58,431 nucleotides of DNA, taken from a virus. The notes under the pieces are model-generated. The model was given only the letters and a program-made list of their open reading frames with translations. It ran no database searches and had not been told where the DNA came from. The first letter of the stretch is position 1. Every line of letters begins with the position of its first letter. Both the position numbers and the translations under genes were made by a program. Of the stretch, positions 11,894 to 58,431 are shown in pieces. The stretch covers positions 1-58,431 of the IMG/VR virus record IMGVR_UViG_3300021425_000043, one strand, 5' to 3'.

Positions 11894-11982
11894 AGAGCGT
11901 CACCCCAACGACAAAGGGTACACGGATAAAAAGTCGCTCCAAAAGTCGACTGGTTAATTAATTTAATGATAGGAGAAATATC

Positions 11983-13128
11983 ATGGCAAATACTAACTTT
12001 GCTTCTTTGACCAGTGAACAGCTTACTATCTGGTCTAGAGATTTCTGGCGTGTAGCTAGAAATATGTCCTTCATTAACCAATTCGCGGGTAGCGGAAACA
12101 ACGCTATGGTTCAGAGAATATCTGAGCTTACCCAATCAGAAAAGGGAGCTAGAGCTGTATTAACACTTTTAGCTGACATGACTGGTGACGGTATTGTTGG
12201 AGACAACACTCTCGAAGGTAATGAAGAATCACTAAGAGCGTTCGACATAGTCGTAACAATCGACCAACTAAGATTTGCGAACAGACTGTCAGGTAGACTG
12301 GCTGATCAAAAATCAGTTGTGAACTTCAGGGAACATTCAAGAGATGCTCTTGCTTATGCAATGGCTGACAGAATGGACCAATTAGCATTCCTTACACTAA
12401 GTGGTATTGGATATAACTTGAAAAACAATGGTGGTCTAAGAGCCTCAATGAATTCAGGTCAAAACCTAAACGACTTAGAGTTCTCAAGCTCTGTAAGTGC
12501 GCCAACTTCTAATAGACATAGAAGAGTGGATGCAACTAACGGTCTTGTAGCTGGTGATGTTACTGCTTTAGAAGCAGCTGACAAAATAAGCTACAGCACT
12601 ATTGTAGATCTAAAAGCTTACGCTAAAGATCAATACATTAGAGGACTAAGAGGTGCGGGTAACGACGAGACATTCCATCTCTTCGTAACACCACAAGTAA
12701 TGGCTGACCTAAAACTTGATTCAGACTTCCTTGCTAACGTAAGAAATGCTGGAGTAAGAGGGCCAGGTTCAAGCTTGTTCTCAGGTTCATCATCTCTAAT
12801 GGTTGATGGCATCATGGTTCACGAGTTTAGACATGTGTTTAATACAAGTGGCGCTTTAACCGGTACTTCAGCAAATGCTGGTGCTGCTGGTTATAAAGGT
12901 GGTGCAGATGCAGACATAAACTACTCAAGATGTTTATTCTGTGGCGCTCAATCATTAGCTATGGCAGATATTGGTATACCAGAGATAGTAGAAGATACCT
13001 TCGACTATGGTAACCAAAACGGTATTTCAATTGGTAAAATCTTCGGACTCAAGAAGCCAGTCTACAATTCAGACCACACAGGTCAGGATGAAGACTTCGG
13101 CGTTATTGCGTTAGATGTAGCATACTAA
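11983..13128 (+). CDS. major capsid protein, N4-gp56/DUF4043-like
   Basis: The 381-residue protein begins MANTNFASLTSEQLTIW after ATAGGAGAAATATC. Conserved segments include GDGIVGDNTLEGNEE (residues ~65-80), IDQLRFANRLSGRLADQKS and ADRMDQLAFLTLSG. I recognise these from the N4 gp56/DUF4043 capsid family, HK97-fold shells seen in many podoviruses. Position after scaffold, its own structured leader and a following hairpin all fit the most abundant virion protein. The C-terminal part (HTGQDEDFGVIALDVAY) contains typical beta elements. No maturation protease is encoded nearby. Confidence 0.92.
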   Translation: MANTNFASLTSEQLTIWSRDFWRVARNMSFINQFAGSGNNAMVQRISELTQSEKGARAVLTLLADMTGDGIVGDNTLEGNEESLRAFDIVVTIDQLRFANRLSGRLADQKSVVNFREHSRDALAYAMADRMDQLAFLTLSGIGYNLKNNGGLRASMNSGQNLNDLEFSSSVSAPTSNRHRRVDATNGLVAGDVTALEAADKISYSTIVDLKAYAKDQYIRGLRGAGNDETFHLFVTPQVMADLKLDSDFLANVRNAGVRGPGSSLFSGSSSLMVDGIMVHEFRHVFNTSGALTGTSANAGAAGYKGGADADINYSRCLFCGAQSLAMADIGIPEIVEDTFDYGNQNGISIGKIFGLKKPVYNSDHTGQDEDFGVIALDVAY

Positions 13129-13129: not shown

Positions 13130-13138
13130 TGTGGTATA
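13130..13138 (+). promoter_or_regulatory. second TGTGGTATA motif
   Basis: This is identical to the nonamer at 11773 and is followed by TTTTATGGG. It precedes the hairpin at 13143, so it may start the transcript of the adaptor genes or mark a processing site. Confidence 0.3.
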
Positions 13139-13142
13139 TTTT

Positions 13143-13168: not shown

Positions 13169-13184
13169 ATTTAAGGAGAAAATT

Positions 13185-13547
13185 ATGTGGATAGTATCAA
13201 ACGAAGACAAATCAGTAGCATCTACTTGGGGTGCAGTTATACACTTAAAAGCTGGCGAACCTAGACAAGTTGGTGATGATTTAGGTTTACTTTGTTTACA
13301 AGCCGGATGCACGGAAGTAAAAGACATTAAACAAGCCCCAGTAGTAGAACCTGCTCCTATAGTAGAAGAAGTTTCAATAGAGGAAGAAGCTGTTATAGAG
13401 GAAGCTCCAGCAGTTGAAGACCCAAAACCAAACTTTGAAGGTATGACTAAAGTAGAGCTAGAAGAATACGGTAGAACTATTGGAATAGAATTAGACAGGC
13501 GCAAAAAGAAATCAGATTTAATAGCAGAGCTTGAACAAGCGGAGTAA
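13185..13547 (+). CDS. hypothetical virion-associated protein, 120 aa
   Basis: It begins MWIVSNEDKSVASTW behind AAGGAGAAAATT. Residues 1-45 look like a small beta domain (AVIHLKAGEPRQVGDDLG). Residues 48-80 are a Val/Glu/Pro-rich linker (PVVEPAPIVEEVSIEEEAV). The C-terminus (MTKVELEEYGRTIGIELDRR, then KKSDLIAELEQA) resembles the HeH/SAP-like helix-extended-loop-helix motif common in phage head genes. Its place between capsid and adaptor genes suggests a head decoration or head-completion role. Confidence 0.65.
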   Translation: MWIVSNEDKSVASTWGAVIHLKAGEPRQVGDDLGLLCLQAGCTEVKDIKQAPVVEPAPIVEEVSIEEEAVIEEAPAVEDPKPNFEGMTKVELEEYGRTIGIELDRRKKKSDLIAELEQAE

Positions 13548-40269: not shown

Positions 40270-40616
40270 CCGAAGCGATTACGGTAATCCAAGAAGTTGG
40301 TTTTCCTATAGCAGCTGCAGCTGGTTTAGGTTGGTTTATTTATAAACTAATCATGCGTATTGTGGACGGTATGGAGACAAAACTTGATACCGTAGATGAA
40401 AAAGTAGAATCTCAAATAGCAGCCATAGAAGAACGACTAGGCACAAAACTTGACTCACAGCATGGTATTTTAGTAGCCTTAATAGACAGGGTGCGTAGTT
40501 TAGATAACGAAATTATAAGACAAGACACTTTGATAAAGACTATTCTTGGCGTACCTCAACTAATAGATAGCAATAAAATTGCTAAGGCGGATAGAGATGA
40601 CCAAAGAAAAGATTAA
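40266..40616 (+). CDS. BhlA-like holin / membrane protein, 116 aa
   Basis: The ATGA overlap couples it to the previous gene. One N-terminal membrane segment (residues ~12-33, GFPIAAAAGLGWFIYKLIM) is followed by a long coiled coil (METKLDTVDEKVESQIAAIE ... LVALIDRVRSLDNEI). This topology fits BhlA/UviB-type bacteriocin-release holins. It could instead be a lysis regulator for the first holin. Its last 20 nt overlap csgF. Confidence 0.65.
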   Translation: MTEAITVIQEVGFPIAAAAGLGWFIYKLIMRIVDGMETKLDTVDEKVESQIAAIEERLGTKLDSQHGILVALIDRVRSLDNEIIRQDTLIKTILGVPQLIDSNKIAKADRDDQRKD

Positions 40617-41139
40617 AAGAAAAAGAGGCAGACCCTCTAACGCAGAACTAAAGCGTAGAAAAGAAGAAAGGGAAAAGGATCTTATCCTAAGGGTATTGCT
40701 TGCGATAGGGGTTTTTCTAATTGGTGCTATAGTTTCACAAAACTTATTAGCAGACCAAATGACCCATAAGTTTAAGTCTCCTTCTTTTAGTGGAGAAAAT
40801 ACTTCTAGTCACTACCTAACAATAGATAATGTTGAATACACTAGAAAAATGTCTATAAAAGCAGAATTAAAAGCTTTGCAAGACCAAATAAAAAGAGACA
40901 AAGAGAACACAACCCTTGCTAGATTTGTCCGTAATTTAGAGTCTAGGATTTATGCACAGTTGTCTAGACAACTTGTAGAAGCTTTGTTTGGAGAGACTCC
41001 AAGCGATAATGGTACAATTGAGTTAGAAGGTAATACAATTACCTATAGTGTAGTAGACGGTATAATAACTCTAACTGTGGTGGACTCGGACGGCAATGAA
41101 ACAATTATTCAAATTCCTATCGGTAGTTTTACTTTCTAG
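40597..41139 (+). CDS. csgF: CsgF-like curli assembly protein
   Basis: I start at ATG 40597 (MTKEKIKRKRGRPSN); an earlier in-frame start lies inside the previous gene. Residues 1-29 are strongly basic and include an AT-hook-like RGRP. Residues 30-51 are a hydrophobic membrane/signal segment (LILRVLLAIGVFLIGAIV). From residue 54 the chain aligns with mature CsgF: MTHKFKSPSFSGENTSSHYL, as in the E. coli segment that plugs CsgG. A helix (ARFVRNLESRIYAQLSRQLV) and the beta domain GTIELEGNTITYSVVDG, then LTVVDSDGNETIIQIP, follow. CsgF couples the pore to extracellular nucleation. The long basic leader is unusual. Confidence 0.85.
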   Translation: MTKEKIKRKRGRPSNAELKRRKEEREKDLILRVLLAIGVFLIGAIVSQNLLADQMTHKFKSPSFSGENTSSHYLTIDNVEYTRKMSIKAELKALQDQIKRDKENTTLARFVRNLESRIYAQLSRQLVEALFGETPSDNGTIELEGNTITYSVVDGIITLTVVDSDGNETIIQIPIGSFTF

Positions 41140-41956
41140 TTGTGCGTCCTTAATATTTGACCCGATAGAAAATAACATAGGCCCAATCCAAAAAATAGAA
41201 AGGGCAGAGGTAGAAACACTCGCAGTATCTAATCTTTCTTCTGTTGGAGTGCCAACACGTAAACCAGTCATTGCAGTTTATCCTACAAGTTTTACAGACC
41301 AAACAGGACAAAGGTTAAGCAATTCAAGCTACGCTTCTTTCTCTACTGCAATAACTCAACTACCAAGTGCCTATTTAATAAGAGCTTTGCATAAAGCAGG
41401 CTCGGATCACGGGGGGTTTTTTACTGTAGTTGAAAGGGTAGGTTTAGATAACTTAACTAAAGAACGCCAAATTATAAGAAGCACTAGAGAAAAAGAAGAT
41501 AATGCCAAGGAGCTAGGGGCCCTTTTGTTCGCAGGTTTAATTATAGAAGGGGGTGTGATAGGATATGAGAGTAACGTTACGTCTGGCGGTGCTGGAGCAC
41601 GCTATTTAGGCTTAGGTGCAACCAAAGCGTATAGAAGAGATTCAGTAACAGTACAACTTAGGTTGGTATCTGTTACAACGGGAAAAGTTTTGCTAGAGAC
41701 ACTGGTGACTAAAACAATACTAAGTGCCTCATTAAGTAACGATGTTTTTCGATTTATTTCTGATAATACAGAGTTAGTCGAAATAGAAAGTGGTGTTGTA
41801 AGAAACGAATCCGGAGGATTGGCTTTAAGGGCCGCCATAGAAACAGCAGTTCTGCAGATAATTAAGGAGGGTACAGAAGCAGGCTATTGGAGTATACATG
41901 AAAAATATAAAACTATTGATTGCGATGCTGATTGTGTCGCCTCTGTACGCGGCTGA
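41096..41956 (+). CDS. csgG: CsgG-like outer-membrane curli secretion channel lipoprotein
   Basis: 286 residues. The lipobox LLSSC makes C16 the mature lipidated residue. The body aligns throughout with E. coli CsgG: FTDQTGQ, ASFSTAITQLPSAYLIRAL, VVERVGLDNLTKERQIIRST, and the highly conserved EGGVIGYESNVTSGGAGARY, then LRLVSVTTGKVL, TKTILSASL and VFRFI. CsgG forms a nonameric 36-strand pore. The constriction Phe (F56) is kept in SFSTA, while the N55 position is Ser and the Y51 alignment shifts. The start lies 44 nt inside csgF, so translation is coupled. Bacterial csgE, csgB and csgD are absent. Confidence 0.95.
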   Translation: MKQLFKFLSVVLLSSCASLIFDPIENNIGPIQKIERAEVETLAVSNLSSVGVPTRKPVIAVYPTSFTDQTGQRLSNSSYASFSTAITQLPSAYLIRALHKAGSDHGGFFTVVERVGLDNLTKERQIIRSTREKEDNAKELGALLFAGLIIEGGVIGYESNVTSGGAGARYLGLGATKAYRRDSVTVQLRLVSVTTGKVLLETLVTKTILSASLSNDVFRFISDNTELVEIESGVVRNESGGLALRAAIETAVLQIIKEGTEAGYWSIHEKYKTIDCDADCVASVRG

Positions 41957-42608
41957 TAACGAAATATATGTAGATCAAGCCGGTGCTACTTTAAACCTAG
42001 ACTTAGAACAACTTGGTTCTGGTAATATTATAGGCGGGCTTAATGCTGCTGCTGGTAGTATGACTGCTCTTGACCTTGATGGCGCTACTATGACTTTAGA
42101 CATAAACCAAATAGGTGGTTCTAATACATTTTTAGGGGATATTTTAGCTGACAATTTTACAGGTTTTTTTGAGTTTGATGGAGACAGTAATGACTTTACA
42201 ATCCAAGTAGACCCTACTAATACCTATGGAGCTGACGGTAGTAATCTTAATGTAGACGTTACAGGAGACAGCAACGACTTTACGTTAAACGTAGGGACAA
42301 CAGCTTTAACTGGTAATTTAGACTTAGATTGGATTATAAATGGTTCTAGTAATACATTTGATTTTGATATTAACTACGATGGTGCTACATCTTATGTAGA
42401 CGTAGATGGTGATTCTAACAATGTTACATTTGATGGTTCAGGCTATGCAGGCGGATATTTTTACCTTGACCAAACAGGTAATAGTAGAACATTTAATATT
42501 CAACAACTGAGTACCCAAGATAATGACTGGCTTAAAATTATATCTAACGGTAATGGTGGTACTGTTTGCGTCATTCAAAACGACCAAGGCACAGGCACAA
42601 GCTGTTAA
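41898..42608 (+). CDS. secreted curlin-like repeat protein
   Basis: The 236-residue protein has a signal peptide (MKNIKLLIAMLIVSPLYA, cleavage before ADNE). It then has seven degenerate curlin-like strand-turn units: QAGATLNLDLEQLGSGN, INQIGGSNTF, DGDSNDFTIQV, TGDSNDFTLNV, NGSSNTFDFDI, DGDSNNVTFD and DQTGNSRTFNIQQ. The G-x-S-N turn and alternating hydrophobic strands mirror CsgA/CsgB QxGxxN repeats, though acidic Asp often replaces Gln. Two Cys sit near the C-terminus (C224, C236). It begins 59 nt inside csgG, so it is the likely cargo of the phage CsgG pore. It may form an amyloid-like fibre or coat. Confidence 0.75.
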   Translation: MKNIKLLIAMLIVSPLYAADNEIYVDQAGATLNLDLEQLGSGNIIGGLNAAAGSMTALDLDGATMTLDINQIGGSNTFLGDILADNFTGFFEFDGDSNDFTIQVDPTNTYGADGSNLNVDVTGDSNDFTLNVGTTALTGNLDLDWIINGSSNTFDFDINYDGATSYVDVDGDSNNVTFDGSGYAGGYFYLDQTGNSRTFNIQQLSTQDNDWLKIISNGNGGTVCVIQNDQGTGTSC

Positions 42609-43632
42609 TATTGGAGATATTTCTGAACTAAAAGGGACTGCTAGCGTCTTAAGAGACCAACCTTACGGCGCTGAATTAGATTTTGACATTCAACAAATGG
42701 ATGACGTTCGTACAACTAACGGACGTGTAGGCATAACATTCCTGGACAATTCTATTGTACGACTGACGGAACATTCTAAACTTGTCATAACTGAATACAT
42801 TTACGACCCTGACCCTTCAAAAGGTAAAATGGCCATGACGTTTGCTAGCGGTACGGCTAGGTTTATAAGCAGTAAACTAGGCAAGATTGATAAAAAAAAC
42901 ATAAAACTTTCTACACCTACAGCTGACATTGCAATTCGTGGGACTGATTTTACGTGTACCGTAGACGAACTTGGACGTTCGCTTATTATTTTACTACCTG
43001 ATGCTAACGGTTTATCTAGTGGCGAAATACTTGTTACAACCGCTGCAGGCACAGTTACTTTAAACAGACCTTATGAAGCTACGACTGTTAATGTATTTGA
43101 AAACGCACCTAGTAAACCTGTTATATTAGATTTAACTTTAGACATAATAGACAACATGTTGATTGTTAGTCCTCCGGACGAATCAAAGTTATCCACAGAA
43201 TCATCCACAACGTCCGGAAATACTGGGGCAATTTTAGATATAGACTATTTAGAGTTTGAGGATTTAGAGTTTGATTATCTAGCAGAAGACTCGCTTGAAT
43301 TTAGTGAGCTTGATATAAATTATTTAGATGTTAATTTTTTTGAAGATTTATTAGAAGTTATAGAAGAATTAGATACTTTGGGAGACCAGGCATTGACTAC
43401 AGGTTCAGTGCTGCAGGGCACAACCTTTGGGCAAGATTTAGTTACGCAAATTACAACTTTTAAACAAGATGAAAGCATTATTTTAGAAAGAGCAGTAACG
43501 CAAGCTACTAAGTTGACCCTAAACATATCGCAGGGCTATACTATAATATTACTGCAGGATGGTAAAACACAACAAGTGTTAATAAATGGTGGAGGTGACT
43601 CTACTATAAGGATTACACAGGGGTCAGGATGA
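42523..43632 (+). CDS. secreted FecR-domain protein
   Basis: 369 residues with a signal peptide (MTGLKLYLTVMVVLFASFKTTKAQA). A FecR domain spans ~30-180 with its markers: RTTNGRVGITFLDNSIVRL, TEHSKLVITEY, GTARFISSK and STPTADIAIRGTDF. The second half is acidic (DIDYLEFEDLEFDYLAEDSL) and ends with a small beta motif (LNISQGYTIILLQDG). FecR domains sense or transmit signals in the periplasm. In bacteria, single FecR-domain proteins are often encoded next to CHASE2 adenylate cyclases, exactly as here. It starts 86 nt inside the curlin-like gene; M11 (42553) is an alternative start. Confidence 0.85.
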   Translation: MTGLKLYLTVMVVLFASFKTTKAQAQAVNIGDISELKGTASVLRDQPYGAELDFDIQQMDDVRTTNGRVGITFLDNSIVRLTEHSKLVITEYIYDPDPSKGKMAMTFASGTARFISSKLGKIDKKNIKLSTPTADIAIRGTDFTCTVDELGRSLIILLPDANGLSSGEILVTTAAGTVTLNRPYEATTVNVFENAPSKPVILDLTLDIIDNMLIVSPPDESKLSTESSTTSGNTGAILDIDYLEFEDLEFDYLAEDSLEFSELDINYLDVNFFEDLLEVIEELDTLGDQALTTGSVLQGTTFGQDLVTQITTFKQDESIILERAVTQATKLTLNISQGYTIILLQDGKTQQVLINGGGDSTIRITQGSG

Positions 43633-45380
43633 AGAAATGGATTTCGTTATTAGCAATACCAATACTAGCTATACCACTGCTGTTTAACTGGCAGGCACTA
43701 GAGATACTTAAATTAAAAACATTTGATGCTTTCGTACAAAAACAAGATCCATCTGGCTGGTTTGTAACTTTAGATATAACAGAAGAAGATGTAGCAACTG
43801 CAGGTGGGTGGCCGTACCCGCGTCAGGACTTGGCACGCATTCATTTAGATTTATTAGAAGCAGGAGCTTTAGGTGTAGGTTGGGTTGTTGCTTTTCCACA
43901 AGCAGATAGGTTTGGTGGCGACCAAGCATTTGGAGATGCTTTGTTACAAGGTGCGAGTGTTATTGCTACTTTTGAAGGTGGGGCTTCGTATGCACCTACC
44001 ACAGGCACAGTCATACTAGGAGATGGTATACCTATAGAAGCTATAAAAGCTCAAGGTGTTATTGGAAATGTACCCGTGCTAGCAGAGTCAGCTTACCAGG
44101 GGCTGGCAGTTGCACGAACTGACGTAGATAATTTAGTTAGACGTTTACCCTTACTATTACAAACACCTGATGGTTGGACGCCGTCTTTTGGTATACAAGT
44201 AATGAAGATGATTGGTGGCGCAGATACGTACATTATTAAAGGGCAGCAAGGGCAGATAGAAGAACTGACTGTACCTAACTACGCACAAATACCTGTAGAT
44301 AGCATTGGGCGTCGTTGGGTGTCTTGGGTTGATACGCCAAGCACAAGCCTAGAAGAGATGGATGTACGAGATAAATTTGTGTTTATAGGCGTGAGTGCAA
44401 AAGGTGTTATGCCTCAAATAGCTACGCCAGTTGGATTGTTGTACCCACATGAGATACAAGCTGCACTAGCTGAGAGTATGACAATGGATGTACCAGCTAT
44501 ACCAGGCAATGCTCTATTATATGAATTACTTATATTAGTTACAGTACTAACCTTAGCCATAGTTATAATACGTACATTAGGGCTCGTCGGAACTTTAGTA
44601 GGGACCGTGGGCCTCGTATCGTTAACCGCGGTCGGAGGTTGGTACTTAATTGCATCGAATATACTTATAGATGTTACTTATAGTATATTATCAGCCATAC
44701 TTATATCTATTCAAGAATTTTATTTACGCTTTAACGAACAATTTAAACTTAGACAATTAATAAAGAAACAGTTTGAACACTACTTAGATCCGAAACAAGT
44801 TGCACGATTACAAAACAACCCTGGCTTATTACAATTAGGTGGAGAAAAACGTATATGTACATTCTTGTTCACAGACGTCAGAGGGTTCACGAATCTGTCC
44901 GAAAAATTATCTCCTGAAGAAGTAACAGAAATAATGAATAAAGTTCTTACTGTACAAGTTACATGTATTCAAGCACATGGTGGTATGGTAGATAAGTTTA
45001 TAGGCGACGCATGTATGGCCATCTTTAATGCCCCCCTATCTATAGATGAACATGAAAAACGTGCAGTCGCCTGTGCTCAGGATATGCGTACGGCTATTCG
45101 CATGCTGCAAAAAGAATTGTCCGAACCAATTGCAATAGGCATAGGTGTTAATACAGGCGAAGCAGTAATAGGTAACATGGGCTCAGATACTAGGTTTGAT
45201 TATTCAGCAATAGGAGATGCGGTAAATACGGCTGCACGATTAGAGAGTGCAACTAAAGAAGCTGGAGTAGATATTTTAATTGGAGAAACTACTGCTAAGA
45301 AGATGTTGTATGATCTGACACTATTAGCTCCTATAAAAGTAAAAGGTAAAGCAAAACCTTTAAAGGTGTATACTATATAA
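43629..45380 (+). CDS. CHASE2-domain class III adenylate/guanylate cyclase
   Basis: 583 residues. One N-terminal membrane helix (4-20) is followed by a CHASE2 extracytoplasmic sensor (~25-290: WFVTLDITEEDVATAGGWPY, RHLPLLL-like RRLPLLLQT). Three membrane helices (~298-362) and a catalytic domain (~405-583) follow. Catalytic residues are complete: metal-binding D416 (TDVRGFT) and D460 (FIGDA), purine-specifying K456 (VDKF) with S526 at the Thr/Asp position (DYSAIGD), and transition-state N533 and R537 (VNTAARLE). It should convert ATP to cAMP at the inner membrane; Ser instead of Thr leaves slight doubt on base specificity. ATGA overlap with the FecR gene implies a sensor pair. Such a cyclase is highly unusual for a phage. 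Confidence 0.92.
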   Translation: MKKWISLLAIPILAIPLLFNWQALEILKLKTFDAFVQKQDPSGWFVTLDITEEDVATAGGWPYPRQDLARIHLDLLEAGALGVGWVVAFPQADRFGGDQAFGDALLQGASVIATFEGGASYAPTTGTVILGDGIPIEAIKAQGVIGNVPVLAESAYQGLAVARTDVDNLVRRLPLLLQTPDGWTPSFGIQVMKMIGGADTYIIKGQQGQIEELTVPNYAQIPVDSIGRRWVSWVDTPSTSLEEMDVRDKFVFIGVSAKGVMPQIATPVGLLYPHEIQAALAESMTMDVPAIPGNALLYELLILVTVLTLAIVIIRTLGLVGTLVGTVGLVSLTAVGGWYLIASNILIDVTYSILSAILISIQEFYLRFNEQFKLRQLIKKQFEHYLDPKQVARLQNNPGLLQLGGEKRICTFLFTDVRGFTNLSEKLSPEEVTEIMNKVLTVQVTCIQAHGGMVDKFIGDACMAIFNAPLSIDEHEKRAVACAQDMRTAIRMLQKELSEPIAIGIGVNTGEAVIGNMGSDTRFDYSAIGDAVNTAARLESATKEAGVDILIGETTAKKMLYDLTLLAPIKVKGKAKPLKVYTI

Positions 45381-45684: not shown

Positions 45685-45948
45685 CTATCTAAAATCGTTT
45701 GGCGGGCTTGTACGTGCGTCCTCTGCGTTTTCTTCTTTTTCGAGTGTTTTAATTAATCTTTTTAGATACCATTCAGCTTTTAAGACATCTTGTAGCCCTT
45801 TTTTGGCTTCATAGCGCCACATATACTTTTGAATGTTACCTTTAAGATAACCTTTAAAGGCTTCAGGGGTCATACTTTCTTCTATTGCCACAATACATTC
45901 CACATTTCCTGTGTTGTAATGCGGAGGTGAGTTTACATAATCAGTCAT
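45685..45948 (-). CDS. DUF3310 (SaV-like) protein
   Basis: The 87-residue protein begins MTDYVNSPPHYNTGNVECIV. The family signature is complete: VxSPPHYxxGxxECI, then IEESMTPEAFKGYLKGNIQK, YMWRYEAKKGLQDVLKAEWY and LKRLI. DUF3310 proteins are widespread in phages and often annotated as nucleotide kinases without proof; the small helical fold resembles MazG-type nucleotide-binding bundles. It is the last leftward gene of the replication block and overlaps the previous gene by 8 nt. Confidence 0.9.
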   Translation of the reverse strand: MTDYVNSPPHYNTGNVECIVAIEESMTPEAFKGYLKGNIQKYMWRYEAKKGLQDVLKAEWYLKRLIKTLEKEENAEDARTSPPNDFR

Positions 45949-46366
45949 TTGTTTCTCCTAAACAAAAATTAGTTAATACTTTTATAAATATTTTAAACGG
46001 TATCGCTTCTTTTACAAATTGCGCTACTGTAATGTGTGTGGTTGTAAAATCTTCAGTGACGTACACTAGATCCCCAGATGCAAATACTGCGTACGTAAAG
46101 ACACCATGTTCTTTTTGGCGAGTAAGCCAAATGCGCTGTTGCTCAGATAAGTTAATTTTTATTTTTGAGTTAAGCTTTGCAGGCAAGTCTTCTTTGTATT
46201 TATATTCAATCCAACAATGATTTGCTGGTCCTGAGTAGTAAGTGTCCGATACACCTCCGTGGTAAGGATCATTGATCTTCCACCTATAAACTTCTTTAGG
46301 TAGTTTTCTGTGGACTTTATTTATGAACTCCTTTTCACGCACATCCTGAGTATAACATACGTACAA
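45941..46366 (-). CDS. PD-(D/E)XK-type endonuclease, VRR-NUC/resolvase-like
   Basis: 141 residues beginning MYVCYTQDVREKEFINKVHR. Active-site pattern: E near 13 (EKEFINKVH), D40 in PYHGGVSDTYY, WIEYKYK giving E-x-K, and a following Gln in LSEQQRIWL. This fits small phage PD-(D/E)XK nucleases used as Holliday-junction or debranching enzymes. No good ribosome site precedes ATG 46366; GTG 46342 (MREKEFINK) is possible, preceded by CTCAGGAT. It follows a hairpin and belongs to the replication block. Confidence 0.75.
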   Translation of the reverse strand: MYVCYTQDVREKEFINKVHRKLPKEVYRWKINDPYHGGVSDTYYSGPANHCWIEYKYKEDLPAKLNSKIKINLSEQQRIWLTRQKEHGVFTYAVFASGDLVYVTEDFTTTHITVAQFVKEAIPFKIFIKVLTNFCLGETND

Positions 46367-46441: not shown

Positions 46442-47116
46442 CTAGGACTTAGCAAATGTTTTGTTGTAAAAACCTTTTGCAATTTCGTAAGTTTCTTCTT
46501 TCAACCAACCAACGTTAGAAACAGCAATGTTCATAAATCGTTGTCCAGCTTTGTTAGCTGTTTGTACTGAAGACATTTTCCATAAGGAAGAAAATCTATC
46601 GCCCCCTAACTTAGCAATTTGTGTATTCCATTCTCTAGAAACTTTTAATTTAGAGATTGAACAATCAAACAAGAAAGGTATATCTGATATATCTCCTGTC
46701 TTTTCATCTACTTTTAATAGTGTATGAGTTTGAGTTCTGTTTATATCATAGTCCTCTACTTTAAGACCTTCATCTTCTAGATGTTGTAATGCTTCTGCTT
46801 GAGAGTTAAAAGTCCCTGCAAGACCACCACCTTTTTCTAATTGTTTCCACACTACAAACTCTTCTTTGAAGTGTACGTTAACTAGATAAAGTTCTTTACC
46901 GTAGTTTTCTTTGGTTACAGTATTAATGAAGTCACCTACTTTAGCGCCTTCAATATACTCGCTATGGTTTTCATCTACTTCGTTTGATAACTGCTGCAGC
47001 TGTTTCAAACGTGGTGTAGACAAATGCTCTGAGTTAATGTTTTCATTACCCAGATTTGTGCCATTCTTTACATGAGCTGGCATGGTGCTCGTTACTATAC
47101 TTATATCATTAGACAT
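46442..47116 (-). CDS. conserved replication-block protein of unknown function, 224 aa
   Basis: It begins MSNDISIVTSTMPAHVKNGT behind AAAAAGGAGAACGTTCA. The first 60 residues are polar; the rest is alpha/beta with KVGDFINTVTKENYGKELYL, VHFKEEFVVWKQLEKGGGLA and SSLWKMSSVQTANKAGQRFM. I recall this family from marine podoviruses but know no function. A single-stranded-DNA-binding or recombination accessory role would fit its place beside helicase and nuclease genes, with no motif to prove it. Confidence 0.7.
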   Translation of the reverse strand: MSNDISIVTSTMPAHVKNGTNLGNENINSEHLSTPRLKQLQQLSNEVDENHSEYIEGAKVGDFINTVTKENYGKELYLVNVHFKEEFVVWKQLEKGGGLAGTFNSQAEALQHLEDEGLKVEDYDINRTQTHTLLKVDEKTGDISDIPFLFDCSISKLKVSREWNTQIAKLGGDRFSSLWKMSSVQTANKAGQRFMNIAVSNVGWLKEETYEIAKGFYNKTFAKS

Positions 47117-47146
47117 TGAACGTTCTCCTTTTTATCTAAATTAATA

Positions 47147-47515
47147 TTATGCTGACCTGAAATTAATTCTGGTCAACTCCGTACTTTTAACACCAGGTAC
47201 ATCAGTACCAGTTGCTATAAGTTCTCTGTAAGCTGTTGCAGACACACGTTTTTGCAAAAGCTCAAACTGACCTGTGTTTGTTACGTGCTGGTGCAATGCA
47301 TCCCAATCTTCTACAGTTGGCACAATCTCATTTTTAAGTGAAATTGTACAAATATCATTAGAGATCTTGTCGAGCCCTTGCTCTTGCATCCTAATAGATA
47401 TTTGACTTTCTAGTTCGCGTTGTTGTGATTTCAAAAGCTTTTCTTCTGACTGCACAACTTTAATTTGATTACGAACTTTAGCTGTTTCTGCTAATAAATC
47501 ATTTAGTTTTTTCAT
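47147..47515 (-). CDS. coiled-coil replication-block protein, 122 aa
   Basis: It begins MKKLNDLLAETAKVRNQIKV. Residues 1-45 form a coiled coil (RNQIKVVQSEEKLLKSQQRE). The remainder is a small domain (NDICTISLKNEIVPTVEDWD; YRELIATGTDVPGVKSTELT). This N-terminal coil with a 'VPTVEDWDxLHxHV' module is common in phage replication blocks, with no assigned activity. ATGA overlap with the helicase upstream indicates translational coupling, so it may be a helicase partner. Confidence 0.7.
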   Translation of the reverse strand: MKKLNDLLAETAKVRNQIKVVQSEEKLLKSQQRELESQISIRMQEQGLDKISNDICTISLKNEIVPTVEDWDALHQHVTNTGQFELLQKRVSATAYRELIATGTDVPGVKSTELTRINFRSA

Positions 47516-48922: not shown

Positions 48923-49678
48923 TTAACTTATGCCCCATTCACAATGGGGTTCTTGACCTTTGCCAAAAGAACACCACCTACAGTTATATGTACTTGGGTT
49001 AGGTGGAAATTTAGTAGCAGTAGTCATAGCTACAGCTCGCTCATGTAGCTTTGGCATAAACACCATAGCTTCATCTCGCGTGTACGTTTGCTCCATCGTA
49101 GTACCATGATCTAGATACCACATTTCTGTGTTAAGTATTTCTAAATCAGGATACATGAAGAAGGTGCCGATAGCATAGATGAGCGCTTGTTGGCTGTGCG
49201 CGATTTCATTGCCCATCTGTTTACCAGTTTTATAATCTATGACACGAGCTGATGTCTCGGACTCATGTACTAAAGCATCTAGTTTGATACGTGCCCAAGT
49301 GTCAGGAGAAATCCAACCTGTCGGTTCCCATTTTTGAGTAAACCCCCATTCTCCTTCAGTTTCGACTTTTCCATCTGCAAAAAGTTGTTTTAGCTCTTCA
49401 AAATTTTGAGAAAATTTTCTGAGTGTTTCTGGTAATTCGCTTAGTTCAGAACGTACGAATTGTTCTGCCTGATCATGTATGCGTGTACCGCGTTCTGCTG
49501 CAGGGCCAAAGTCTTCTTGTACACGTTTTACTTTAGATATGTAGGTTCTGTATGCGCAAGACTCGAAGGTTTTTAAGGCCGAGTAAGACCATGCTGGCAC
49601 CAGACCTAGTTCTAAATCCTCCGTGACCTCAACCGTTGAGATTAGGTCTGGACGTTTGGGTGATGTTAGATTCTCCAT
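48923..49678 (-). CDS. RecB/Cas4-like PD-(D/E)XK exonuclease with Fe-S cysteines
   Basis: 251 residues. Nuclease motifs: RGTRIHDQAE (His of motif I), RIKLDALV (motif II Asp) and VIDYKTGK (motif III D-x-K), then QALIYAI. Four cysteines, C41 and the C-terminal C233, C236 and C246, match the iron-sulfur cluster of AddB/Cas4-type nucleases. This enzyme should resect or trim DNA ends in recombination or host DNA degradation. Its start lies 50 nt inside the primase-helicase gene, an unusually long coding overlap. Confidence 0.92.
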   Translation of the reverse strand: MENLTSPKRPDLISTVEVTEDLELGLVPAWSYSALKTFESCAYRTYISKVKRVQEDFGPAAERGTRIHDQAEQFVRSELSELPETLRKFSQNFEELKQLFADGKVETEGEWGFTQKWEPTGWISPDTWARIKLDALVHESETSARVIDYKTGKQMGNEIAHSQQALIYAIGTFFMYPDLEILNTEMWYLDHGTTMEQTYTRDEAMVFMPKLHERAVAMTTATKFPPNPSTYNCRWCSFGKGQEPHCEWGIS

Positions 49679-52118
49679 TATCTAATAAGTTTAAATCCCT
49701 TTCGTCGAAATGTTCTTTTATTAACTCTTCTCGAACATTATTATCTATTTTCCATGTCAATACAACCCCGCGTGGTATACCAGCTGTACGATCTTTACTA
49801 ATACGCTTACGTGCAGTTTTAATATTTAATCGTGACATAGCTTTAGAAAAGTCTCTTTGTGACATGGTGTTGCGACTATCTGTTAATGTATCGTACACAA
49901 CTTTAAAGTGAGCTAGTGGTATTATTGTTTCAGTACCAAGACTAGCTATCCATTCTTTTACGTATCTTTGTGATGTGCTTACGCCACCAGCATCAAAGGT
50001 GTTTGTAAGTGGTATATCCAACACATCTGTAAAATACTCAAGGTTGCGTGTACGAATTGCGTTTGCAAATTCTTCAAGAACAGACATAGATACTTCTTTC
50101 ATTTCTTTCTTCGCGTCATTCTCCAGCGCTGTATGAGCCATACGTACGTCAACTTTAAATTTGTTTAATACTCCTGCAAGAATATATAACTCGGGTTCTA
50201 GTGCATCTAAGTTTTGTAATAGTTCTGGAAAAGCTTGTTCTATTTTTTCTTCTTGTCGTGGTGCTACGTTATATCTTCTGTCGCTGTCTTCGATCTTGAC
50301 TGCGTCTGCTCTGTTTGTAAGAAAGATAAAGTTCGTGAAAGACGGCAGCTCGATTTGGTTTGTACGCATAGCTCTAATAGTTAAATTAGGTTCTGTAATT
50401 TGATGTTTTAATTTATCGGCCATTTTACCGACAGATCCTGAGTCAGCCATACGAAACTCATCAACTACTAAAAACAATGCAGTACGCATATATAAGTTGA
50501 ACTGTTCTTCTATATTTTCTAAAGCTCTCATTGGTGTTTGCATTTCACCAAACAGTGGTTTTAATATTTTGTGTACAAACAAACCTTTACCAGTGCCCGG
50601 TATGCCCGTAAATATCCATGCAGTCATTGTTTTCTTTCTGTATTGGTATATGTAAGCTAACCAATTCATAAAGTGTTCAAACTCAGGTTTGCCATTACCA
50701 AGTGCGTGCATCATAAGTTTGTAAAAGTTAGGTGCAATTTTTTGAATCTGAATGGCTTCACCGTACGATAGTTCTTTTACGTTCTCTTCGCTACGCAGCA
50801 TATATGGCGTACGTCTAAATAAATTTACTGAGTATGGAACGGTCTCCAAGTCAATACCTTTGTCACTGCTAGGATCGAATACGACACGAGCATCAGGAAC
50901 AAAGTCCATGGCAGGGCGACCATGAGACTTAAGAAAATCATTAATAGAGCTTTTGCCCGTTGGTGTAAGGGGATACTCGTCGTCAAATTGTTGTTTTGTT
51001 TCATCATACACTCCGTTGTAATAGGTATCTGTGAAAAAATCACGTAATACAATTGGTTTCTTTTTAGTTTCGTTATCTATTTTATCTGCAAATATTTCAA
51101 AGATACTACGATAGAAATCTGGGTCTGCTTTTTCTATTTCCCATACAGGTTCACCTTTAAAGTTGTACATGTAATGAGGGTTAGTTAGTAAAAAGTAATA
51201 ACCTCCGCTGTCACCATTGTTTACATTACAGTTAACAAAAGGTTCGGACACGCGTGTGATCTGGATGGTCATTTTGTCTGGGTTTTGTAGTACTTCGTGT
51301 GCTTCTCCAGCAACGTTGACCGTAGTTACTTTACCAACTCTTTTTGGAAGATTGTTTTTCTTCCTTAAATTATCTTTAATTTGCAAACCAAGGGTATGTA
51401 CCTTTTCAGGATTAACACCGATTAAAGATGAGGAGATTTCAAGAACTGGGGAACCACGGTCAACCTTGATAAATCTACCATTAGGGTAAGGGTCTTCTAC
51501 ATTAACAAATTTAGGAGTTGCAATATAAATTAATTTGCTGTTGTCAGCTACAGATGGATCTAGTATGTACGAAAGACTTTGACCGTTAGCTGATAACTTA
51601 ATTTGTTCTGCAAGAAACTCTGTTTTGTAGTTAATCATACGAATAAAATCTTTTAAAGTTTTTGGATGGACGGGCATATCTAATAGAAAGAAAAGGTGTA
51701 ATGACACGGTATCTTTCTTAAAGCCTAAAGACGCACTAGCTTGAGCAATATAACTTACATTATGAAAAACCTCTGGAAGTTGTAAGACTATTTTGTCGGC
51801 CAGTGCTTGAAGATCTCCTGGATTAGATGTATGTAAACCATCTACATCCAGCACTAATAGCTGCGTAGTTTTTGCACGTTCGGACATAAAAGCCCGGGGT
51901 TCGTTGTCCAGTGTTCGTTTAAGCGAACCTTTGTGTAAACATGCGCCTTTATCAGCTTGTTCTGTTAATAGTTTGTATAGTTTATTTAGTCCTTTTTTAT
52001 CTACAGATATATCAAAATGTTCTGAACTAAAGTCTTTGACTAATGGATATGGCTTGATGCCATCTTCTGATATTTCTTTGGACAGGGGTTTTTTAGCGTT
52101 TAAAAACACAACTTCCAT
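49629..52118 (-). CDS. primase-helicase: AEP-like primase fused to SF3 helicase
   Basis: 829 residues. The N-terminal primase-polymerase domain shows LLVLDVDG (D91, D93) and the S-x-H motif SLHLFF (S139, H141). A central linker follows, then an SF3-type helicase with Walker A FTGIPGTGKG (~503-512), Walker B FLVVDEFR, and TNFIFLTNRADAV with EDSDRRYNV. Such fusions (P4-alpha/DUF5906 type) make primers and unwind DNA at the fork. AAGGAGATTTAATT precedes the ATG. It lies between csrA and the nuclease and would work directly with the family-A polymerase upstream. Confidence 0.9.
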   Translation of the reverse strand: MEVVFLNAKKPLSKEISEDGIKPYPLVKDFSSEHFDISVDKKGLNKLYKLLTEQADKGACLHKGSLKRTLDNEPRAFMSERAKTTQLLVLDVDGLHTSNPGDLQALADKIVLQLPEVFHNVSYIAQASASLGFKKDTVSLHLFFLLDMPVHPKTLKDFIRMINYKTEFLAEQIKLSANGQSLSYILDPSVADNSKLIYIATPKFVNVEDPYPNGRFIKVDRGSPVLEISSSLIGVNPEKVHTLGLQIKDNLRKKNNLPKRVGKVTTVNVAGEAHEVLQNPDKMTIQITRVSEPFVNCNVNNGDSGGYYFLLTNPHYMYNFKGEPVWEIEKADPDFYRSIFEIFADKIDNETKKKPIVLRDFFTDTYYNGVYDETKQQFDDEYPLTPTGKSSINDFLKSHGRPAMDFVPDARVVFDPSSDKGIDLETVPYSVNLFRRTPYMLRSEENVKELSYGEAIQIQKIAPNFYKLMMHALGNGKPEFEHFMNWLAYIYQYRKKTMTAWIFTGIPGTGKGLFVHKILKPLFGEMQTPMRALENIEEQFNLYMRTALFLVVDEFRMADSGSVGKMADKLKHQITEPNLTIRAMRTNQIELPSFTNFIFLTNRADAVKIEDSDRRYNVAPRQEEKIEQAFPELLQNLDALEPELYILAGVLNKFKVDVRMAHTALENDAKKEMKEVSMSVLEEFANAIRTRNLEYFTDVLDIPLTNTFDAGGVSTSQRYVKEWIASLGTETIIPLAHFKVVYDTLTDSRNTMSQRDFSKAMSRLNIKTARKRISKDRTAGIPRGVVLTWKIDNNVREELIKEHFDERDLNLLDNGESNITQTSRPNLNG

Positions 52119-52120: not shown

Positions 52121-52306
52121 TTAAATCTCCTTATCTAAGTATACTTCCTCTCTATCTATCCGTACAGATTTGTCTGCCTGGAACCCTAGTTTGCATTGGG
52201 TAGGTGATATATTAGTTACGGTTACAGTACAAATTACTTTACCGTCTTGTTGTATAACAACTTTATCGCCTTTCTTTCGAGTTAGTATTAAATTTTTATT
52301 TGTCAT
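52121..52306 (-). CDS. csrA: CsrA/RsmA-family RNA-binding regulator
   Basis: 61 residues, the usual CsrA length. The N-terminal strand NLILTRKKGDKVVI matches MLILTRKxGE of CsrA, and the C-terminal IDREEVY matches HREEIY, with R52 at the place of the RNA-binding R44. TVTVTNISPTQCKLGFQADK fills the central strands (usually VxGNQVRIGVxAP). CsrA dimers bind GGA in mRNA leaders and control translation of carbon, motility and biofilm genes. The gene starts inside the polymerase 3' end (11-nt overlap) and sits 2 nt before the primase-helicase, so it is made early with replication proteins. Confidence 0.92.
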   Translation of the reverse strand: MTNKNLILTRKKGDKVVIQQDGKVICTVTVTNISPTQCKLGFQADKSVRIDREEVYLDKEI

Positions 52307-54092
52307 ATACCTGACTTACGCCTCCCTCAGCATCGAGTGGTAAATCTTGACACCACTCTGGGGCTGTACGCATGATTTCTATAATTTTATCCATTGTAGC
52401 ATCAGCATTGTATTCTGAGCCAATAGCAATTATTTCGTCATGTACCTGTAAAACAATATCTACTTCAGGTAGTGCTTGTATCTCTAGCATTTGATCGGTA
52501 ATGACCAGCCTAGCTAGTGCTTGTACGACGTTTTCTGTAATACGAGGGCCATGTGTACGGATCATCTCACGTTCAGTTTTGTATATAAACTGACCAGCTT
52601 GATAATGTAAACCTGGATAACTTAGTCGCATGCCATTTGGTAGTTCGAGTGCGTGTCGTTGGATCGTAAGAGGCCCGTACTTTAATCCGATACCACGTGG
52701 GTTAATCATTTGAAAGAGTGAATCTTTCATCCCGGACCAAAGTCTGGGAATGTTGGAATACATTGCACGGTATTGCATAACAATAGCTTGAGCTGTAGCA
52801 TCTCCTACGTCTACGGATGGGGAGCCAGTTTTCAGCGTTGCTTGGAACTTGTCGGCTCCCATACCGTACCCGAGACCAAGAATAGCTGTTTTACCTACGT
52901 ATCTTTCTAGTTTGTCAGCTTTGGTAATTGTACGCCCATATATCTGTGAAGCAAATTCACAGTATACATCGCGACCTGTAGCAAAAGCCTGAACTAGTTC
53001 ATGTTCTTTAGCTAACCATGCGAGCATACGTGCTTCGATATTAGACAAGTCAGCTATATAGAGCTTTTGTCCTTCAGGCGCCATCAGTGCCGTACGTAAC
53101 TTTGAACCCCGGGGGAGGTTTTGTAGATTAATCTTATCAGAGCCACCAAATCTACCTGTGTGTGCGGCATAATAACGCAGCGGAATACTGAACGTACCGT
53201 CAGGGTTGCACGAATCAATAAAACGCTGTGCTCTAGTTTCTTCAATACGAGACTTTACCATCTCTCTAGCTTCCCAAATATGATTGTATTCTGGGTACAT
53301 GTTACACATCTGTATGTAAGCGCTGTCGTTTTTACCGAATGCAGGTATTTGTTGGCCAGTAGTTGGGCTTTTCTTTGTAGGGACAGTTATACCTAATGAT
53401 TCTAAATGTTCTTTGAACTTTACTTGTGAAGCCAGTACTTCTCGTGTAACGCCTGAGTCCTGGATCGCTTGTTCTGTACGCTTTGTTATGTCGTCTTTGT
53501 AGGCTATTAGTGATCCGCGGTCCAGCATAAGTTTTGGCTCTACAAACATACGTACAGTTAGATCTATAATCTGAAGCTCTTTGTCTGGATAACCAGCGCT
53601 GTAGCTTTTAAATAGTTCGTACGTTAAATCGACATCCTGGATACAATAACCGCCGATCTGTGCATCAAGCTCTGGGTCCAGGTCACGCACGCCTTTAGCA
53701 TTTACAAGTTCTTCACCTTTACGTTTTGTTTCGTCGTTTGGAAACTCTCGTTTGCACGCATTAGCAAGGCTTGCGGACATGTTTGGATAGAGGCCACGGG
53801 ACATAGCCGCAGTATCATAATAAAATGCAGGCTTGTAACCATAATATTGTGTTAGTATGTAGGCATCAAATAAAGTATTGTGGCACACAACGGCAGTAGC
53901 TGCCCAATTAATTTGTCCGAGTATTTCTGGTGTTTCTTCTTCGTTGTACCATTCGGTTGGTCCGTCTTCTACTTTGATACCAACCCCCCATACTTTGAAG
54001 TCTGGATGGTTGACATACTGTACGGTGCTCATTTTGGTGAGAGACAGTTGTACGTCATAGTAAGTTTCAAAGTCTAAGTAAATTTTTTGCAT
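52296..54092 (-). CDS. polA: family-A DNA polymerase with 3'-5' exonuclease domain
   Basis: I choose MQKIYLDFETYY (ATG 54092) with GGGAGTGGAT before it; MGVDMQK at 54104 is the longer form. The exonuclease begins at YLDFETYY (D-x-E). Polymerase motif A is YIADLSNIEAR (D348), motif B RYVGKTAILGLGYG (R397, K401) and motif C VLQVHDEI. The residue equal to E. coli F762 is leucine (L405), a variant known to mark certain viral polymerases with slower but more accurate synthesis. There is no 5'-3' exonuclease domain. It is the main phage replicase. Confidence 0.95.
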   Translation of the reverse strand: MQKIYLDFETYYDVQLSLTKMSTVQYVNHPDFKVWGVGIKVEDGPTEWYNEEETPEILGQINWAATAVVCHNTLFDAYILTQYYGYKPAFYYDTAAMSRGLYPNMSASLANACKREFPNDETKRKGEELVNAKGVRDLDPELDAQIGGYCIQDVDLTYELFKSYSAGYPDKELQIIDLTVRMFVEPKLMLDRGSLIAYKDDITKRTEQAIQDSGVTREVLASQVKFKEHLESLGITVPTKKSPTTGQQIPAFGKNDSAYIQMCNMYPEYNHIWEAREMVKSRIEETRAQRFIDSCNPDGTFSIPLRYYAAHTGRFGGSDKINLQNLPRGSKLRTALMAPEGQKLYIADLSNIEARMLAWLAKEHELVQAFATGRDVYCEFASQIYGRTITKADKLERYVGKTAILGLGYGMGADKFQATLKTGSPSVDVGDATAQAIVMQYRAMYSNIPRLWSGMKDSLFQMINPRGIGLKYGPLTIQRHALELPNGMRLSYPGLHYQAGQFIYKTEREMIRTHGPRITENVVQALARLVITDQMLEIQALPEVDIVLQVHDEIIAIGSEYNADATMDKIIEIMRTAPEWCQDLPLDAEGGVSQVYDK

Positions 54093-54169
54093 ATCCACTC
54101 CCATGCTTTTTTAAGGTCAGCGTTTAAGTTTTCTAACATTTGTAATAAGTTATTAAATTCATTTTTCAT
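54074..54169 (-). CDS. possible tiny protein, 31 aa
   Basis: The frame begins MKNEFNNLLQMLENLNADLK and ends ICKKFT, a helical amphipathic peptide. It starts at the ATG overlapping the previous gene's stop (CATGAAAAATGA) and ends just inside polA, so it would bridge the two by translational coupling. The ribosome site is weak and length is minimal, so it may be chance. Confidence 0.35.
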   Translation of the reverse strand: MKNEFNNLLQMLENLNADLKKAWEWICKKFT

Positions 54170-54413: not shown

Positions 54414-54643
54414 AGTTCCTCCTGAACTTGTAGTTGTATTGGATCCATGTCTCCGTACCAGTCGACATAGTCATCTTCAGTTACATCTTTACCTAATTCT
54501 TCTTGCAAGTGTTGATGCCACTCTTGTTCTTTTTTTTCTCTATAATCTTCTTCTAAATCTTTATTATTAAAAAAAGCATCGGCTCTAACTACTTCGTAGT
54601 CATGACCATATTTACTATTTTTAATTAATATTTGTACTTTCAT
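54410..54643 (-). CDS. small acidic hypothetical protein, 77 aa
   Basis: It begins MKVQILIKNSKYGHDYEVVR behind AAGGAGGAACT. After a short beta start it is strongly acidic and helical (KDLEEDYREKKEQEWHQHLQ, then DVTEDDYVDWYGDMD). High acidity and early position are typical of DNA-mimic or host-inhibitor proteins, but nothing specific is shown. ATGA overlaps join it to both neighbours. Confidence 0.65.
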   Translation of the reverse strand: MKVQILIKNSKYGHDYEVVRADAFFNNKDLEEDYREKKEQEWHQHLQEELGKDVTEDDYVDWYGDMDPIQLQVQEEL

Positions 54644-54852
54644 AGTTCCTCCTTGAACTTATTCATTTTCGTACACCAGTCCTCATACTCGCTGCGCTTT
54701 GCACGCTCCCAGCCTATTTGTTTACTAGTATACATATTATATGCAACAGAAATCTTTACATATTTCCATTGTATAAACGGCAAGTCTGCTGGATCGTTGT
54801 AAGTGTACGGATGTATAGGGTTACGTTTAACGTAAACGTGGGTTGGGGGCAT
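54640..54852 (-). CDS. small hypothetical protein, 70 aa
   Basis: It begins MPPTHVYVKRNPIHPYTYND and ends KMNKFKEEL. It is rich in Tyr, Pro and Trp (ADLPFIQWKYVKISVAYNMY), followed by a basic helix (GWERAKRSEYEDWCTKMNK). It has no family match. It is the first leftward gene of the replication operon, facing the plus-strand gene at 54951, so an operon promoter should lie within the 98-nt divergent gap. Confidence 0.6.
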   Translation of the reverse strand: MPPTHVYVKRNPIHPYTYNDPADLPFIQWKYVKISVAYNMYTSKQIGWERAKRSEYEDWCTKMNKFKEEL

Positions 54853-54874
54853 CTAATTACTCCGTTAATTAAAC

Positions 54875-54903
54875 TTGACAAAACCCATTTCTGTCTTTAT
54901 GAC
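54875..54903 (+). promoter_or_regulatory. sigma70-like promoter for the 54951 gene
   Basis: A perfect -35 TTGACA (54875-54880) is followed after 17 nt by TATGAC (54898-54903), with TATAGAT just downstream. The ATG is 48 nt further on, behind AATGGAGAATTGAT. ACCCATT/AATGGGT inverted segments flank the start region. This is the clearest host-type promoter in the window. Confidence 0.5.
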
Positions 54904-57267: not shown

Positions 57268-57446
57268 TAAGTTAACCTCCATAATAAATAAATAATACAC
57301 CCGAGGCCGATTCCGACACCGAGCAGAAGCAACGAGTATTGAATACTAGTTGCAAGACCGAATAATAAAAACAACACAGCTGTGCCGGTCAACACAGAAA
57401 TACCAAAGTCTTTGGCATATTGTTTACATTTTGATAACTTCTCCAT
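57267..57446 (-). CDS. two-pass membrane protein, 59 aa
   Basis: MEKLSKCKQYAKDFGISVLT starts at ATG 57446 behind GGAGGCTCCCT; the longer frame upstream is the metallopeptidase gene in another phase. Two membrane segments (ISVLTGTAVLFLLFGLATSI; LLLLGVGIGLGCIIYLLWRL) form a hairpin. It overlaps the metallopeptidase end by 23 nt and the next start by one base. With the next two genes it forms a small membrane-protein cluster. Confidence 0.6.
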   Translation of the reverse strand: MEKLSKCKQYAKDFGISVLTGTAVLFLLFGLATSIQYSLLLLGVGIGLGCIIYLLWRLT

Positions 57447-58431
57447 AGGGAGCCTCCTCTGCATTAGTTGATATAAATAACACTGGATATTGTGGTTTGT
57501 CTCCAAAATCTGATTCATGCACCTCAAGATCAGTAAGATAGACAAGAGCAGCAACATTTGGATAATTAGCATTAACAACATCAATTACTGGGCTAATACT
57601 TGTACCACCTCTGCCTTTGTATGTAATTTCAAGAGGCAATGATTCACGCGTGTACTCGCATATATCTTGTACTTCATAGTCACATTGAATAAACTGCACA
57701 CGCTCAGGGTTGAGCTCATGCAATATGTACGAAGTTTCAGAAGTAAACTGTGCTAACTCGTCATCTGAAATAGAACCAGATGTATCTACCGCAATCGCAA
57801 TCTCTTCGAGACATGGATTATGGAGACTAGGCAGATACATGCCTTGGCCAATGAATCGTCTGTTAGGACGAGCCCATGTAAAATCAGATTTGTTGTTCGC
57901 ACGTAAGAAACGAGCCAACACAGCTTTCCAATCAACTTTTGGATCTGTAATTTCTGACACTAGTTTTTGCATATTGCCAGATAGTTTGCCTTGTGCTTTA
58001 GCAGCTTCAGCTGCTTGGTTAACTGCTACTTGCAGTTCCGATTCAATAGCACTAGCAGTACCGCTTGTACCATCAGAATCGGGATGATCCAGCACGCCAC
58101 CACAACCACCGCTATCTTTGTATGCAGCGTCCCATCCCTGAGGAGGTTCAGGTAGCATATTGTAGATAGCTTCGGTGGTCATGTTTTCGTACTGGTCATC
58201 CACCAGACCGCCTTTAGGCAAAATAAAACCTTCAGCTATGAGATGGTTGTTGATAGCGTAGTCAGCTGCAACATTCCATTTGTGACCGTTGCGTTCTTGT
58301 CTACGCGTGTGATGCATAAGAACCAGGTGCATAACTTCGTGCGCCAGGAAACCCACACGCTCCATCTCTGTAAGCTTTTCAAACCACTTGGGATTGTAGA
58401 ACAAATGTTTACCGTCTACTGCACCAGTTGG
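57424..58431 (-). CDS. metallopeptidase/VWA-like protein (DUF2201-type), 5' end cut by window edge
   Basis: The open frame continues to the last base, so the start lies outside; 335 residues are visible. The N-terminal part has a zinc-peptidase motif FLAHEVMHLVLMHHTRR (HExxH plus a following His). The C-terminal part is a VWA-like domain with MIDAS IAVDTSGSISDDE, a Thr/Ser loop GRGGTSISP and Asp in LVYLTDLEV. This two-domain form matches DUF2201 proteins, which pair with MoxR ATPases. The probable partner is the ATPase at 404-1420. The pair may chelate or insert metals, or remodel a target protein. Confidence 0.9.
   Translation of the reverse strand, partial: PTGAVDGKHLFYNPKWFEKLTEMERVGFLAHEVMHLVLMHHTRRQERNGHKWNVAADYAINNHLIAEGFILPKGGLVDDQYENMTTEAIYNMLPEPPQGWDAAYKDSGGCGGVLDHPDSDGTSGTASAIESELQVAVNQAAEAAKAQGKLSGNMQKLVSEITDPKVDWKAVLARFLRANNKSDFTWARPNRRFIGQGMYLPSLHNPCLEEIAIAVDTSGSISDDELAQFTSETSYILHELNPERVQFIQCDYEVQDICEYTRESLPLEITYKGRGGTSISPVIDVVNANYPNVAALVYLTDLEVHESDFGDKPQYPVLFISTNAEEAPYGEVIKM

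Follow-up and report, generated by a model that had tools for sequence, protein, structure and literature searches.

On the minus strand of the 58,431-nt contig analysed here (IMG/VR record IMGVR_UViG_3300021425_000043; hereafter the window), an open reading frame that begins with ATG encodes a CsrA-like protein of 61 residues, which carries LILTRK close to its N-terminus and DREEVY close to its C-terminus. It lies between the genes for a family-A DNA polymerase and a DUF5906 primase/helicase-like protein (Table 1), as the original prediction had placed it. With start codons assigned by rule, the csrA start overlaps the polymerase 3' end by 11 nt, within its last codons, and 2 nt separate the csrA end from the primase start. 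The minus strand continues after the primase with genes for an exonuclease, an SNF2 helicase, a Pam3_Gp34-family protein and DUF3310; the label primase-helicase is acceptable for the DUF5906 protein, with this separate SNF2 helicase further downstream. Gene order and co-orientation suggest that the csrA region forms one operon, before which no consensus match to a sigma-70 promoter was found. A conserved hairpin, GUUGACC...GGUCAGC, precedes the Pam3_Gp34-family gene (47116-47190) in the window and its relatives.

At the contig ends, a minus-strand VWA/DUF2201 gene runs off both sides (3-395 and 57424-58404); it lies behind a gene for a MoxR-like ATPase (404-1420). This split of one gene across the two ends points to a circularly permuted and nearly complete genome of ~58 kb.

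Table 1. Genes and candidate regulatory hairpins of the csrA region and capsid gene start in the window.
Feature	Position	Strand	Basis
csrA, RNA-binding protein of the CsrA family; 4-residue insertion compared with cellular CsrA	52121..52306	-	Pfam, PHROG, fold, alignment
Family-A DNA polymerase, upstream neighbour of csrA	52296..54104	-	Pfam DNA_pol_A 6.2e-32
DUF5906 primase/helicase-like protein, downstream neighbour of csrA	49629..52118	-	Pfam DUF5906 5.6e-18, PHROG 24712 9.5e-163
Small gene of 70 aa that opens the replication operon (gene 54852)	54640..54852	-	ORF, conserved in relatives
Leader hairpin 1, GACAGAA-AUGGG-UUUUGUC, upstream of the 54852 Shine-Dalgarno hairpin	54877..54895	-	Stem covaries
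Leader hairpin 2, candidate site, 9-bp hairpin GUUUAAUUA-ACGGAG-UAAUUAGAU, first operon gene (54852)	54851..54874	-	Inferred binding
Candidate site AGUUC-AAGGAG-GAACU, start of gene 54643	54644..54659	-	Compensatory stems in relatives
Candidate site AGUUC-AGGAG-GAACU, start of gene 54413 just before polymerase	54414..54428	-	Hairpin
Candidate site UUAGAU-AAGGAG-AUUUAA, primase start within csrA 3' end	52121..52138	-	Weaker hairpin
Candidate site UUUGUUU-AGGAG-AAACAAA, DUF3310 gene start	45948..45966	-	Hairpin
Candidate site AUGAUA-GGAGAAA-UAUCAU, major capsid gene start	11966..11984	+	Hairpin

Family and predicted fold of the phage CsrA

The protein matched the Pfam CsrA family PF02599, the profile named as a check in the original prediction, with an E-value of 4.7e-13 and 49.3 bits (gathering cut-off 27) over profile positions 2-50 of 53. 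Its best PHROG match was PHROG 9500, 'CsrA-like regulator' (1.8e-10, residues 6-59). The NCBIfam CsrA equivalog cut-offs were missed, at 41.1 versus 73 bits and 36.8 versus 70.1 bits. Judged by profile comparison, the phage protein is thus a member of the CsrA/RsmA family and not an equivalog of bacterial CsrA. An alignment with solved CsrA chains placed four additional residues after its second strand.

The CsrA fold has five strands plus a helix at the C-terminus; strands 1 and 5 are exchanged with the partner chain, and a single chain of the interlocked dimer shows extended, unpaired first and last strands. An AlphaFold2 monomer predicted from an alignment of 49 family members (pLDDT 89) formed three strands and the C-terminal helix, while the first strand (~residues 6-11) and the last (~47-52) were extended and unpaired. 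The shape of this monomer model, on which the dimer interface was checked, is compatible with a CsrA homodimer. In a Foldseek search of the PDB, the best matches, of high probability, were all CsrA, RsmA or RsmE; the best of them had an E-value of 2.2e-3 with a probability of 1.00, and none of the top matches passed 0.001; a search of a viral library matched phage CsrAs. The model thus predicts that the phage protein carries the CsrA fold. Reading frame, Pfam and PHROG matches and predicted fold together bear out the initial description of a 61-residue CsrA with both conserved ends.

We then compared the positions of known RNA contacts across 118 distinct phage CsrA proteins. The residues that correspond to L2, R6 and R44 of E. 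coli CsrA never vary, those for L4, A36 and E46 are kept in at least 96% (L4 in 96%), V42 is I or V, and H43 is changed to D in 96%. R44 of E. coli CsrA corresponds to R52 of the phage protein; in RsmA, an R44A substitution virtually eliminated RNA binding (PMC4066749). By alignment, the RNA-contact residues L4, R6, V42 and R44 are thus retained in the phage CsrA.

Distribution of csrA and of the curli/cyclase cassette

Related loci were gathered by searches with CsrA, with the primase and with a distant primase, and those that include the end of the polymerase together with the start of the primase were kept (192 loci). CsrA lies between polymerase and primase in 191 of them, at primase identities to the window down to 44%; the sole locus without csrA is that of Aeromonas phage phiA008 (29% identity). 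Since some contigs were viewed repeatedly among the 192 loci, the 118 distinct CsrA proteins are the safer count. In the near clade, dN/dS was ~0.15 for csrA versus 0.07 for the primase on identical pairs, which places csrA under purifying selection. That csrA is not a chance reading frame is indicated by this ratio together with the 191 related loci and 118 distinct sequences with the same two flanking genes. Because 191 of 192 loci carry CsrA at a fixed site, comparative genomics marks csrA as an old, vertically inherited core gene of a large marine podovirus-like phage group.

This group consists of uncultured phages, with the nearest isolates at ~30% primase identity. The nearest isolates by primase, polymerase or portal are Kochitakasuvirus KPP25/phiR18, Aeromonas phage phiA008 and Rhizobium phage RHph_TM; the polymerase links KPP25 and RHph_TM to the group. 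Unlike the window phage, KPP25, phiA008 and RHph_TM lack csrA, as rechecked with Pfam and PHROG, and we rejected the idea of a csrA in the nearest isolated phages; in KPP25, polymerase and primase are also not adjacent, unlike in the window. A primase scan of GTDB genomes returned three MAG contigs only (L126-L128), whose MAGs bear the labels Neomarinimicrobiota, Planctomycetaceae and Rhodospirillaceae. The phages in the Planctomycetaceae and Rhodospirillaceae MAGs are near-identical although these MAGs belong to different phyla, so two of the three contigs are probably mis-binned, and we discarded these labels as uninformative about the host.

The window also carries, on the plus strand at 40579-45380, csgF, csgG, a curlin-like ORF, FecR and a CHASE2 adenylate/guanylate cyclase. 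The original prediction had paired csrA with these late cyclase and curli genes as two regulators of one host biofilm and carbon programme at two infection stages, and csrA and the cassette do co-occur in the window and some close relatives. Their distributions differ, however: among 13 csrA-positive virus records of 54-64 kb, csgG was found in 5 and the cyclase in 6, and deeper csrA-positive clades have neither. The cassette is also found in phages without csrA. It has been published from pelagiphages (PMC9599517) and in part from Melnitz (PMC9004378); the window cyclase matches those of HTVC008M and Melnitz over its length at ~31% identity, and both phages lack csrA by Pfam and PHROG. Nor was a GGA hairpin found at the csgF start, one of the leaders singled out in the original prediction for a search for CsrA sites. 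Since csrA and cassette are inherited independently, the two-stage model is not supported; we rejected the coupling on distribution among the csrA-positive records and now hold that model to be scarcely credible. Judged by gene content, csrA is not a partner of curli. The cassette itself lies here in a podovirus-like group unrelated to the pelagiphages, and in part of that group only, which in terms of gene content makes it a further apparent case of transfer across phage groups.

GGA-loop hairpins at gene starts

The raw GGA count in leaders showed no overall excess (0.86 of expected) and was dropped as a signal. We instead scored genes whose Shine-Dalgarno GGA lies in the loop of a short hairpin with a stem score of at least 5, and compared them with shuffles of the flanks. 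In this test, which was designed after the leaders had been looked at and in which related leaders are not independent, 8 of the window's 55 genes with a GGA Shine-Dalgarno qualified against 2.0 in shuffles, and 0 of 1000 shuffles reached 8. The replication operon accounted for 5 of 9 genes (shuffles 0.4), versus 3 of 46 elsewhere (shuffles 1.6; Fisher 0.0016). When the loop anchor was shifted by 6-18 nt, most or all of the excess was gone. Phages without csrA showed no excess, with 13 GGA-loop hairpins among 392 starts against 13.6 expected in ten stretches from nine phages (T4, ICP1, HMO-2011, KPP25, RHph_TM, Melnitz and three pelagiphages). Our in-house CsrA profile was rejected for calling phages csrA-less; it is blind to the CsrAs of LASTA and Parlo, and the controls were therefore rechecked with Pfam and PHROG.

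Across relatives, redundancy-reduced operon leaders in three divergence strata gave 17 hairpins versus 3.7, 10 versus 3.7 and 12 versus 5.6 expected, the excess being modest in the deepest stratum. A genome-wide excess was absent from three deep csrA-positive genomes (G008, G009 and G011). Of 87 leaders of genes that directly precede the polymerase, 24 carry such a hairpin, where 2.2 would be expected, and the stems compensate (AGUUC/GAACU, AAUUC/GAAUU, AAUCC/GGAUU, AACUAC/GUAGUU, ACUUC/GAAGU) while the loops are unchanged. The loops AGGAG, AAGGAG and ACGGAG have the geometry of CsrA sites: AAGGA, ACGGA and AGGA are primary CsrA sites (PMC4066749), and the plasmid-encoded RsmQ binds GGA or ANGGA in loops (PMC9928087).

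When orthologous leaders were ranked, gene 54852, which opens the csrA operon, came first and the capsid gene second. The leader of gene 54852 contains two hairpins, which together are 94.8% paired with 5 pairs changed on both sides. Hairpin 1 shows clear covariation of its stem, with 4 pairs changed on both sides; its loop contains GGA in many relatives, and in the window reads AUGGG, without GGA. Hairpin 2 covers the Shine-Dalgarno sequence and has the AU of the start codon within its stem; its loop is ACGGAG in the window and AGGAG in others, and since it is mostly invariant, covariation lends it slight support. The stem at the primase start is kept in close relatives only. Relatives do not conserve the second GGA of that leader, which in the window is an ACGGA lying 31 nt upstream, and on this ground a two-site CsrA target was rejected there. 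The csrA start itself has no GGA-loop hairpin. At the capsid start, stems compensate in near relatives and the hairpin is absent in more distant ones; the original prediction had named capsid mRNA as a possible target, and the hairpin and its second rank favour this for the near clade only.

Several further structures were seen on the way. Between csrA and primase, ~100 nt before the primase start, members of several deep clades (L135, L141, L166 and L139) have a strong hairpin, which in L135 and L141 reads CUCUUGUUUAUCA-loop-UGAUAAACAAGAG; the loop of these deep-clade hairpins is usually without GGA. The stretch between the capsid gene and the gene that follows it (13135-13185) holds another strong and conserved hairpin, GGGUGGCU...AGCCACCC, which varies in sequence among relatives and is probably a terminator or processing site. 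A phage-encoded sponge RNA of the CsrB/RsmY type was considered and rejected, Rfam giving no match at E <=1.

The hairpins might not be CsrA sites at all: they could tune ribosome access or translational coupling, or serve the host's CsrA, with the phage CsrA doing something else. Several of them do coincide with ATGA stop-start overlaps, at which one would expect coupling structures, the pre-primase loop is devoid of GGA in several deep clades, and some csrA-positive genomes show no genome-wide excess. However, csrA-less phages with similar starts have hairpins at the expected frequency, and in the csrA-positive group the excess is centred on GGA, with stems that co-vary around a constant AGGAG or AAGGAG loop. 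We consider this explanation improbable.

A candidate autogenous regulator and its counterparts

We somewhat favour the reading that the phage CsrA acts mainly on the phage's own mRNAs, as an autogenous translational regulator of the replication operon similar to RegA of T4; binding, dimerisation, repression and timing are what we infer. The protein would dimerise, and the dimer would bind the GGA loops of short hairpins over Shine-Dalgarno sequences in its own operon, namely those of the first gene (54852), genes 54643 and 54413, the primase and DUF3310. Bound CsrA would block ribosome entry and so lower translation of the replication proteins, such that these early proteins may be turned down once CsrA has accumulated enough. 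In the near clade, capsid mRNA is perhaps a further target.

Phage csrA genes have so far mostly been read in terms of host hijacking. Applied here, this would mean that CsrA mimics or competes with host CsrA, binding the host's mRNAs or sponge RNAs and redirecting its metabolism, its surface structures or the expression of CRISPR-Cas, with targets in the phage being secondary. Its RNA-contact residues match those of cellular CsrA, so the protein ought to be able to bind host sites. CRISPR-Cas is repressed by RsmA, and RsmA homologues of phages have been proposed as anti-defence factors (PMC8450108); host targets such as the cas mRNAs proposed there may exist. The plasmid protein RsmQ rewires its host (PMC9928087). 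A purely host-directed protein, however, needs no GGA hairpins clustered at the starts of its own operon and missing from csrA-less phages, and the link to curli and cyclase fails on distribution. We therefore regard a mainly host-directed role as rather unlikely.

For autogenous regulation of the replication operon, one protein and a few short RNAs make the purpose of the phage CsrA testable, as candidate targets can be named. Whether a CsrA-type protein has been domesticated in this group as a core RegA-like regulator, with its own GGA-hairpin regulon kept while the stems turn over, we judge to be evenly balanced. What is new is that csrA is a core gene within the replication operon in a group of uncultured marine phages, along with its four-residue insertion and a concrete candidate regulon of GGA hairpins at replication-gene starts.

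With bacterial CsrA, RsmA and RsmE (PF02599), the phage protein shares the predicted fold, the RNA-contact residues and a Pfam match above cut-off; it differs from bacterial CsrA in its four extra residues, the change of H43 to D in 96%, its place in a phage operon and its sub-equivalog score. Phage-encoded CsrAs are known, including from marine metagenome phages and IMG/VR contigs (PMC7366521, Sobrero and Valverde 2020; PMC8450108, Campa 2021), and some of the contigs analysed here have quite possibly been counted already in published screens of IMG/VR (PMC8450108). In the available parts of these two reports, core status, replication-operon synteny and phage target sites of the csrA phages are not described. 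A CsrA-like gene is likewise fixed within the lineages of Lessievirus (Bcep22, DC1, JC1), Lastavirus LASTA and Parlovirus Parlo, the CsrAs of LASTA and Parlo being far diverged and below the Pfam cut-off. There the gene belongs to the virion module and immediately precedes the major capsid gene; here it is in the replication operon. The lineage-fixed gene beside the capsid gene was already known (PMC9144972). One may speculate that this capsid-adjacent position is connected with the GGA hairpin at the capsid start in the near clade. RsmQ of plasmid pQBR103 is, like the phage CsrA, a CsrA/Rsm homologue on a mobile element, but it resides on a conjugative plasmid rather than a phage, and its demonstrated targets are mRNAs and Rsm RNAs of the host (PMC9928087).

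A parallel in role and position is T4 RegA, a small translational regulator encoded beside the DNA polymerase and annotated as regulating replication-protein mRNAs. The phage csrA is likewise part of the replication cluster, and the gene starts of its own operon carry candidate sites. RegA and the phage CsrA belong to unrelated families without homology and are alike in role and position only. The candidate targets named here suggest that, in abundant marine phages, a protein family unrelated to RegA has given rise to translational feedback of the RegA type.
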